DNA of 64,000 nucleotides from Geobacter sp. AOG1. Lineage in GTDB: Bacteria; Desulfobacterota; Desulfuromonadia; Geobacterales; Geobacteraceae. The stretch's first letter is position 1; each line of letters opens with the position of its first letter. The notes under the pieces are model-generated. The model was not told the DNA's origin and did not search any database. It saw only the letters and a program-made list of their open reading frames with translations. Positions 29,443 to 31,366 of the stretch are shown here, piece by piece. Both the position numbers and the translations under genes were made by a program. Location: assembly GCF_019972315.1 (NCBI RefSeq), contig NZ_BLIZ01000001.1, positions 880,513-944,512 on the forward strand. Direction: 5' to 3'.

Positions 29443-30282
29443 TCACAACTCCCGCAGCACCCGCAGGCCGAGGTAGACATAACGGCCGTCGGGGTTCCCT
29501 CGGCCGCGGGCCGAAGAGCGGACATAGCGCGGCTTGCTCCCGAAGGAGCCCCCCCGCTGCACACGCCGCTTGTCCTCTCCTCCCTGCCAGGCACTCCCGT
29601 CGGTTGGAGCACCTTCATAGCTCTCGTGCCAGTTGTCCTGACACCACTCCCACACGTTGCCTGCAGTGTCGAACAGGCCAAAGGGGTTGGCACCGAAGGC
29701 GCCGACCGGGGAGGTCAGCTTGTTGTCCCACTTGCTGCCGCACCCTTTGCAGTTGGCGCGGTTCTCACCTACGCTGAACCCCCACCAGTAGCGCTCTTCG
29801 ATCCCGCCCCGCGCAGCGTATTCCCATTCCGCCTCGCTGGGGAGGCGGTAGCGCTGACCTGTCTGCTCGGAAAGCCAGCGGGTGTAGGCCACCGCATCAT
29901 CCCAGGTGACGTTCATCACCGGACGGTGATCCCGTCCCCAGTTGGAAAAGGGGAACCAGCGCCGGCCGTCCTTCGGTTTTTCACGGCCGGTTGCCTGGCA
30001 GAACCGGTCGTATTCGGCAAAGGTGATCTCGTAACGCCCCATGGCAAAGGGGCGGGAGATGGTTACCGCATGCACCGGTTTCTCGTCCGGGTCACCACCG
30101 CCATTGATGGCCCCCATCCTGAAACTGCCGGCCGGGATTACCACGAGTTCCGGTCCGGGTGTGCCGTCACGGAGCCGGTCGCGCACCACCGTTCCCGCCG
30201 CCGGTTGCTCCTTCACCCCAGCCGCCTGAACTACCCCAGCGAGCCCCAGCAGCACGATTACCCCAATGAACACCCTTACCAT
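29443..30282 (-). CDS. exported formylglycine-generating-enzyme-like protein
   Basis: A signal peptide (residues 1-20, ending VQAAG) is followed by a SUMF1/FGE-sulfatase domain: FRMGAINGGGDPDEKPVH, YEITFAEYDRFC, MNVTWDDAVAYTRWLSE, YRLPSEAEWEYAARGG and GNVWEWCQDNWH, ending RVQRGGSFGSKPRYVRSSARG. True formylglycine enzymes use copper-binding cysteines in the C-terminal part; I could not align them safely here. Many bacterial members are of unknown role. No sulfatase gene is nearby. Confidence 0.82.
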   Translation of the reverse strand: MVRVFIGVIVLLGLAGVVQAAGVKEQPAAGTVVRDRLRDGTPGPELVVIPAGSFRMGAINGGGDPDEKPVHAVTISRPFAMGRYEITFAEYDRFCQATGREKPKDGRRWFPFSNWGRDHRPVMNVTWDDAVAYTRWLSEQTGQRYRLPSEAEWEYAARGGIEERYWWGFSVGENRANCKGCGSKWDNKLTSPVGAFGANPFGLFDTAGNVWEWCQDNWHESYEGAPTDGSAWQGGEDKRRVQRGGSFGSKPRYVRSSARGRGNPDGRYVYLGLRVLREL

Positions 30283-30410
30283 TCTCGCCCCCTGAAAAAC
30301 TACATTGAACTAACAAACGTCAGATTTGAGATAATCACATAGATGGTGAGGAGGCCGACGGCGAGTCGGCGTAAGCAAGCGTTCAAATATGGCGTTTGCA
30401 TATACAAACA

Positions 30411-30436
30411 AAAGAGGGCTGGAAACCCAGCCCTCT
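30411..30436 (-). terminator. intrinsic terminator of the 6S-like RNA
   Basis: AGAGGGCTGG (30413-30422) pairs with CCAGCCCTCT (30427-30436) around a four-base loop. On the minus strand TTTTGTTTG follows, and it begins about 14 bases past the RNA's closing stem. It is symmetric enough to work in both directions. Confidence 0.85.
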
Positions 30437-30449
30437 TTTTTTACTCTCT

Positions 30450-30631
30450 CCACCATGCCGTTAGCTTTAGGGCCTCCGAGCGAGTTCCCTAACACGTGGG
30501 CGTCTCTGTATCGCTTCAGGCAAATCCCGCAGAGGGGCAGCACACCACGATCGATCAAGACCCCCGAACAAATGAGTATTCCGCCTGGGCATTGCAGCAT
30601 CACGCACATGGCAGAGAGAAGCCGGTTATGT
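30450..30631 (-). ncRNA. ssrS: candidate 6S RNA
   Basis: A 180-nt transcript is framed by a strong promoter and an intrinsic terminator. Its ends pair perfectly over 12 bp: CTCTCTGCCATG with CATGGTGGAGAG. Further pairs stack inwards in register: GTTC/GAAC, CGTGG/CCACG and CTCTG/CAGAG. These leave unpaired stretches between them, giving a rod-shaped hairpin with a central bubble. That shape, length and single-gene layout match 6S RNA, which binds sigma-70 RNA polymerase. The primary sequence was not compared with a 6S covariance model, so the family name is an inference; that it is a structured RNA is well supported. Confidence 0.65.
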
Positions 30632-30638
30632 GGGAATC

Positions 30639-30667
30639 ATTGTAACGCCGTGCCATCTTTAATGCAA
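30639..30667 (-). promoter_or_regulatory. sigma-70-type promoter of the 6S-like RNA
   Basis: On the minus strand TTGCAT (30667-30662) and TACAAT (30644-30639) are separated by exactly 17 bp. The predicted start near 30631 lies 13 bases before the closing stem of the RNA. Confidence 0.82.
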
Positions 30668-30693
30668 GGGGCTAATTCTCCTCCGGGAATTGG

Positions 30694-30721
30694 TTGCATT
30701 TTTGTGGGGATTCAGTAATAT
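30694..30721 (+). promoter_or_regulatory. probable promoter of the DUF507 genes
   Basis: TTGCAT at 30694-30699 and TAATAT at 30716-30721 are 16 bp apart, divergent from the RNA promoter. The GTG start of the first DUF507 gene is 30 bp further on. Confidence 0.55.
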
Positions 30722-30750: not shown

Positions 30751-31038
30751 GTGCGCCTCAAGGACGAGCAGATTGCCAAACTGGCCGACAAAATTCTCGC
30801 CGATCTCACCACCGCCGATCTCATTCGTCTCAAGCGGGAGCGGGGGGCGATCCTGGCCGGCATCAAGGGAGCCATCGCCTCAGACCTCTCGATGGAAGCG
30901 ACTCTTGAAAAGGATGCGGAAAACCTCCTGGAACAGACCCTCCGCTCCATGGGAAGCGCCGCCAGCGGTATCGACCGGCACAAGATGCTCAGGATGATCA
31001 AGGAGAAACTGGCCAAGGAACGCAAAATCGTCCTTTGA
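30751..31038 (+). CDS. DUF507 family protein (first copy)
   Basis: The GTG at 30751 follows CGGGGGAACA, and the 95-residue product begins MRLKDEQIAKLADKILADL. It is highly charged and helical, with the DUF507 pattern (KLADKIL, RGAILAGIKGAI, RMIKEKLAKERK at the end). The biochemical role of DUF507 is unknown. A second DUF507 gene lies 55 bp downstream, so these are tandem paralogues. An upstream in-frame ATG at 30694 would read through the promoter and is rejected. Confidence 0.82.
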   Translation: MRLKDEQIAKLADKILADLTTADLIRLKRERGAILAGIKGAIASDLSMEATLEKDAENLLEQTLRSMGSAASGIDRHKMLRMIKEKLAKERKIVL

Positions 31039-31093
31039 TCCGTTTTCTTTTCACGTTTTACCTTTTACTTTTCACCATTCATCGGGGTTCCCC

Positions 31094-31366
31094 ATGCACG
31101 TAAGCGAAGACCGCATCTCCCACCTGGCCCACCGCATCGTAGAAAAGATCTGGCGGGACGACCTGGCCGATTTCCCCGATGAAGCCCGTGCCCTGCAGTC
31201 GGTCAAGGATACCATCGCCACCTTTTTCCACCTGGCGGCAGAGGTGGACGAAGCGGTCCGGAAAAAACTTGCATCTTACAGCCAGGCCAAGGTTCCGGGG
31301 AGCAGGGACTGGGAAATCCTCTACCAGAAATTTTATCAGGAAGAGATGGTCAAGCGAAAATGGTAA
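31094..31366 (+). CDS. DUF507 family protein (second copy)
   Basis: The 90-residue protein MHVSEDRISHLAHRIVEKIW is the diverged neighbour of the first DUF507 protein: same size class, same alternation of charged helices, little identity. Its end YQKFYQEEMVKRKW is typical of the family. GGGG lies upstream of the ATG. The last codons overlap the start of a lipoprotein gene by 7 bp, suggesting one transcript. Confidence 0.8.
   Translation: MHVSEDRISHLAHRIVEKIWRDDLADFPDEARALQSVKDTIATFFHLAAEVDEAVRKKLASYSQAKVPGSRDWEILYQKFYQEEMVKRKW

Follow-up and report, generated by a model that had tools for sequence, protein, structure and literature searches.

The window, by which the entire 64,000-nt stretch of Geobacter sp. 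AOG1 analysed here is meant, carries a small RNA gene on its minus strand, flanked by a divergently oriented pair of short protein genes on one side and by a gene for an FGE-sulfatase domain protein on the other. When the entire 64-kb window was scanned with cmscan at curated cut-offs, three matches were obtained, namely two tRNAs and 6S RNA (RF00013). The 6S match spans 30443-30620 on the minus strand, scores 65.9 bits against a cut-off of 46.4 (E 8.4e-11) and aligns to positions 1-187 of the 187 model positions, i.e. over the full length. The original prediction had suggested a 6S RNA at this position and had proposed this very check, which bore the identity out. The class II-only model R3, introduced below, also recovers this copy (39.7 bits), its sole match when the window is searched up to E 1. 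Other Rfam families around the locus, sraA and RsmZ among them, remained below their own cut-offs (E 0.11 or worse) and were rejected. The features of the locus are as follows:

29443..30282, minus strand: FGE-sulfatase domain protein gene, next downstream of the 6S terminator
30410..30439, minus strand: intrinsic terminator with a 13-bp stem and the minus-strand tail GTTTGT
30443..30620, minus strand: 6S RNA body, from the RF00013 match and covariation
30579..30584, minus strand: GCGGAA in the 5' strand of the central bubble, presumed pRNA template
30631..30632, minus strand: probable transcription start, placed by spacing (7-8 nt past the -10 element)
30639..30644, minus strand: -10 element TACAAT, 17-nt spacer, present in 4/4 genomes of the genus
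30662..30667, minus strand: -35 element TTGCAT, read directly, present in 4/4 genomes of the genus
30754..31038, plus strand: DUF507 gene divergent from the 6S RNA, matching the N-terminal half of PF04368 (start codon provisional)
31094..31366, plus strand: adjacent DUF507 gene, matching the C-terminal half of PF04368

The minus-strand promoter that had been proposed, TTGCAT and TACAAT separated by 17 nt, was read at 30667-30662 and 30644-30639, and the proposed intrinsic terminator was found as a 13-bp stem (30439-30410) followed by GTTTGT. The promoter is weak by its agreement with the sigma-70 consensus, 8 of 12 positions, and is absent from the consensus scan because a threshold of 9 was applied there; a promoter script settled on an equally scoring frame shifted upstream by one base (CTTGCA, with a spacer of 18). 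The terminator stem also scores in the plus direction, where it has the better T-run. In line with the view that no credible gene covers the stretch, the two overlapping open reading frames (30310-30609, minus strand; 30389-30718, plus strand) match no Pfam family. The divergent DUF507 genes that had been mentioned are indeed present, as two adjacent half-length genes: the DUF507 protein encoded at 30754-31366 is split, with the halves matching PF04368 positions 2-93 and 95-180. The genome belongs to the order Geobacterales; in Geomobilimonas luticola, the nearest named relative found, DUF507 is 93% identical. Pairing between the two ends of the RNA body was found as described. Regarding the predicted folding, the closing stem was recovered, whereas the folding energy lies within the range of chance (z -1.61, with 12 of 200 shuffled sequences equally stable) and was dropped as evidence for an RNA. 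Since fold energy alone does not exceed chance, the evidence for the RNA consists of the model match and covariation.

At E 0.001, 54 of 58 related genomes (the present one included) yielded a 6S match, and the 88 matches were divided by the first letters of their 5' strand into 52 class I sequences, to which the window copy belongs, and 36 others, termed class II. Class I is present as one copy each in 52 of the 58 genomes. The window copy is 97.8-98.9% identical to the copies in three other genomes of the genus, and the class I 6S of genome G002 is 98.3% identical to it. In an alignment of 51 class I sequences (L005 was omitted, being identical to L004), 18 of 41 predicted pairs show substitutions at both positions that preserve the pairing; the compensatory changes expected in related genomes are therefore present, and the closing stem, the central bubble and the apical arm of the window copy are supported by covariation. 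In the bubble strand, CCC and GCGGAA are unchanged across 51/51 sequences, and the pRNA start presumably lies opposite the U at 30578, a placement made by analogy to the start on E. coli 6S RNA. Promoter-like sites with at least 8/12 consensus letters occur within 70 nt upstream of 48 of the 52 class I loci (own locus included; shuffled mean 14.6), 36 of them with a 17-nt spacer, and a hairpin followed by a T-run lies within 100 nt downstream of 52/52 loci under lenient criteria (mean of five shuffles, 4.8). The DUF507 neighbourhood is preserved in part only: at 33 of the 52 loci a divergently oriented DUF507 relative is present upstream, at a distance of at most 200 nt at 9 of them and of 1.2-1.9 kb at 24; the upstream flanks that were checked span 1.5-2.1 kb, so relatives at larger distances would have escaped notice. 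The window gene is thus an ordinary 6S RNA from a known family: it shares with 6S RNA/SsrS (RF00013) the rod shape with closing stem, central bubble and apical arm, the conserved bubble strand and the possession of its own promoter and terminator, and only ordinary sequence divergence was found between them. For Geobacter sulfurreducens, an expression change of the 6S RNA gene GSUR0059 is listed among RNA-seq data in the accessible part of a published study (PMC10599522).

The genome contains three RF00013 matches above the cut-off, the window copy and two class II copies, both of which are accompanied by a boxA-like motif at the 5' end and by a downstream element, termed R1, of about 180 nt:

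C1:2194978-2195155: class II copy, 46.7 bits, RF00013 above cut-off
C1:3064236-3064415: class II copy, 56.4 bits, RF00013 above cut-off
C1:2194965-2195389 (L113:2266-2690), plus strand: whole unit around the first of these copies, with boxA-like motif, 6S-like domain, R1 and terminator
C1:3064223-3064639 (L112:2224-2640), plus strand: whole unit around the other copy, with boxA-like motif and a much diverged R1

The two class II copies of this genome share 42-45% identity with the window copy and 64% with each other, and model R3 likewise marks three places in the genome. Among the 36 class II matches, 21 reach the RF00013 cut-off and 15 miss it. A tree of all 88 sequences separates class I (52) and class II (36) exactly, with a FastTree support of 1.0, and this split is retained in 60/60 column bootstraps; a value of 0.426 displayed on the class I side of the re-rooted tree was read as an effect of re-rooting. 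For 30 class II sequences, 91.6% of the cells are paired compared to 83.5% after shuffling, and 30 of 46 pairs show changes on both sides compared to 14-19 in slid controls, with the structure having been derived from the same sequences that tested it. Class II accordingly has a 6S-type fold supported by covariation. Three or four 6S matches (E 0.001) occur in 6 of the 58 genomes. In having more than one 6S-type RNA per genome, the Geobacter genome resembles Legionella, which reportedly has 6S and 6S2, and B. subtilis with 6S-1 and 6S-2. Unlike these two-copy systems it has three, and its class II, unlike their additional 6S RNAs, mostly carries a boxA-like motif at the 5' end and R1 at the 3' end. 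Most genomes are described as having one 6S gene and some, e.g. B. subtilis, as having two, in the available sections of PMC8876501.

Words such as TGTTCTTTGACAA stand directly 5' of the class II closing stem. The gamma-proteobacterial boxA consensus is given as GYTCTTTAANA in the accessible part of PMC5725501, and the search pattern GYTCTTTRANA adds a G at position 8, a widening that was made after the sequences had been inspected. At least 10 of 11 letters of this pattern were found at 57 of 76 class II loci and at none of the 52 class I loci (mean of the shuffled class II controls, 0.45 of 76); the former divide into 24 of the 36 class II loci found with Rfam and 33 of the 40 further ones that lie upstream of additional R1 places (shuffled means 0.21 and 0.24). 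The class II motif resembles the rRNA leader boxA, which serves NusB/S10 antitermination, in fitting GYTCTTTRANA, and differs from it in mostly having G rather than A at position 8 and in preceding a 6S-like RNA; the comparison is to the gamma-proteobacterial consensus, the rRNA leader of this genome being masked (it reads N). Across the genome, TGTTCTTTGANAA with one mismatch gave 10 matches as opposed to 15 for a reversed-pattern control and is therefore meaningless at this scale. Two of these matches, L120 and L122, fall in a duplicated open frame and not in rRNA; the frame is near-identical at both sites (C1:2300309 and 2922467) and integrase-like by eye.

In the accessible part of a published account, 6S RNA is described as a mimic of an open promoter that is held by the sigma-70 holoenzyme and is set free by pRNA synthesis (PMC8876501). 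By analogy to the family, the sigma-70-type promoter at 30667-30639 would start a transcript near 30631 that would end at the terminator 30439-30410, giving a stable product of approximately 180-190 nt. This RNA would form a rod of closing stem, central bubble and apical arm, thereby mimicking an open promoter, occupy the sigma-70 holoenzyme's active site and damp transcription when growth stops, until, once growth resumes, the polymerase synthesizes a short pRNA on GCGGAA of the bubble and then releases the RNA. Sequence, covariation-based fold, promoter, terminator and conservation of the window gene belong to the observations, while polymerase binding, its timing, pRNA synthesis and the pRNA start are carried over from the 6S family. 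In all, the window feature is almost certainly the main (class I) 6S RNA gene, extending from promoter to terminator and acting as the family does.

With two additional 6S-like genes in the genome, the 6S function may be common to all three or split between them. A scenario in which the class II paralogues perform the 6S work and the window copy is a remnant or serves some other purpose could draw on the presence of three 6S-type genes in one genome, on a full TTGACA -35 word recognized by eye at one of the own class II copies and on the boxA-like motif of most class II loci; yet this is quite unlikely, as class I is kept as a single copy in 52/58 genomes with promoter, terminator and structure conserved, and outscores class II against Rfam in the own genome. 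Considerably less probable again is that the stretch encodes a structured RNA of a different kind or serves as a cis-regulatory leader to the FGE-sulfatase gene, which does lie downstream on the same strand, since the terminator stands between the two, every other Rfam family stays below its cut-off, a relative of the FGE-sulfatase gene accompanies only 10 of the 52 class I loci (flanks of at most ~2 kb) and the full-length 6S match already renders a leader implausible. As for a chance fold in a gene-poor stretch, the unremarkable folding energy (z only -1.61) speaks for it, but covariation, conservation and an E-value of 8.4e-11 refute it, and it can be given practically no weight. The assignment of the window copy as the main 6S gene settles where this gene lies in the lineage; of greater weight are its paralogues, given that one genome has three 6S genes and that two of these bear boxA-like motifs and are joined to an unclassified RNA domain.

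This domain, R1, follows 26 of the 36 class II loci, including one weak instance (L092, 19.7 bits), and is absent from the other 10. Among the loci that were listed and read by eye, R1 is followed by a terminator. Most of the 26 R1-bearing loci served to build the models and hence match by construction, and the E-values of models R1, R2 and R3 are rough owing to a short calibration; R2 was built from matches of R1 and leans towards its structure. In 22 aligned copies, 86.9% of the cells of R1 pair, compared to 78.0% after shuffling and 30-41% when slid, and 27 of 52 pairs show changes on both sides (14-20 when slid), with 129 such cells compared to 46.8 after shuffling. The both-side changes are the stronger point here, because a structure derived from the same sequences favours the paired measure. 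The possibility that R1 is a hidden member of a known family was rejected for the loci scanned: no Rfam family matched at its curated cut-off or at E 0.001, and relaxed E-values brought up weak, unrelated matches only. Next to the window 6S gene no R1 was found, and model R2 gives one match of 11 bits (E 0.31) elsewhere in the window. In the own genome, the much diverged R1 copy scores 34.5 bits with model R1 and 55.5 bits with model R2. The L113 unit, in turn, precedes an open frame that looks, by eye, like a lysyl-tRNA synthetase gene.

Applied to 141 Geobacterales genomes at E 0.001 with strict filters, model R1 matched 107 places in 74 genomes, with 67/141 genomes lacking a match. The 54 places outside the 6S set were fetched, and a class II 6S domain lies upstream at 40 of them and is absent at 14, several of which have a promoter-like site close upstream by eye. 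At L170, approximately 190 nt separate the 6S-like domain from R1. Conversely, L090 and L097 combine a class II 6S RNA and a boxA-like motif with an immediate terminator and no R1, so the parts of class II appear separable. Matches to the boxA pattern at 10 or more of the 11 letters were found at 2 of the 14 R1 places without 6S and at 0 of 17 distant R1 places (two partial distant loci were left out), and matches at 9 or more letters at 9/14 and 4/17, respectively (shuffled 0.62 and 1.11).

Drawn from sequence and covariation, these data suggest that R1 probably represents a real new family of non-coding RNA and that boxA, 6S-like domain and R1 form a single transcript of ~400 nt in Geobacterales, which would make this a composite second class of 6S RNA. 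The production of R1, and possibly its action, might be coupled to the transcription machinery via 6S and Nus factors; this notion is considerably more speculative than the joint transcript, as is the idea that R1 may, for example, link polymerase-bound 6S to a second protein partner. The survey by Wehner from 2014 is said to be the main one on 6S RNA. No paper on 6S RNA with boxA or on an R1-like RNA was found in the open-licence literature, two papers that mention both 6S RNA and boxA being devoted to other subjects by their titles, and the accessible main text of a study on new RNAs in 50 bacterial genomes, Geobacter included, mentions neither '6S RNA' nor 'boxA' (PMC11109978). R1 is conserved and apparently undescribed, which makes it a concrete candidate for a new stable RNA. 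Two questions follow, namely why a Nus-modified polymerase would synthesize a 6S-type RNA and to what the attached domain binds.

Beyond the order, the broader model R2 (E 0.001, strict filters) matched 18 of 395 phylum-sampled genomes, three of them from the own order, and none in the remaining 377. Of 19 R1 loci outside the order, 11 have a tRNA-Sec above cut-off downstream on the same strand at gaps of ~13 to 290 nt, and one more has a tRNA-Sec just below cut-off. In another family of the phylum, R1 occurs in 23 of 30 genomes, 7 of the 23 overlapping with the 19 loci above. A 6S-like stretch lies upstream of R1 on the same strand in 19 of these 23, in 15 of the 19 by its apical arm only, and a tRNA-Sec follows R1 in 12 of the 23, up to ~600 nt away. 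The term '6S-like' relies for this distant family on model R3; RF00013 gave no match at E 0.001 at the seven loci scanned, and at two of them none at E up to 3. R1 was rejected as a general tRNA-Sec leader, as R2 matched (E up to 1) at 0 of the 30 best-scoring tRNA-Sec loci from 148 genomes searched. To judge from the genome sequences, R1 is elsewhere encoded either on its own or next to a 6S-like gene and tRNA-Sec, and it goes with a 6S-type RNA in two separate lineages, being fused to it in one and neighbouring it in the other. One might speculate that R1 is a novel stable RNA that is co-produced with others of this kind, in stable-RNA units. Individual loci of other families of the phylum with R1 directly upstream of a same-strand tRNA-Sec are L158, L159, L160, L163, L205, L206, L209, L210, L211, L215 and L216, and the class II model places a 6S-like stretch, unreported by RF00013 at E 0.001, upstream of R1 at L161, L162, L163, L206, L208, L209 and L210, with the apical arm as the sole part recognized at six of these seven.
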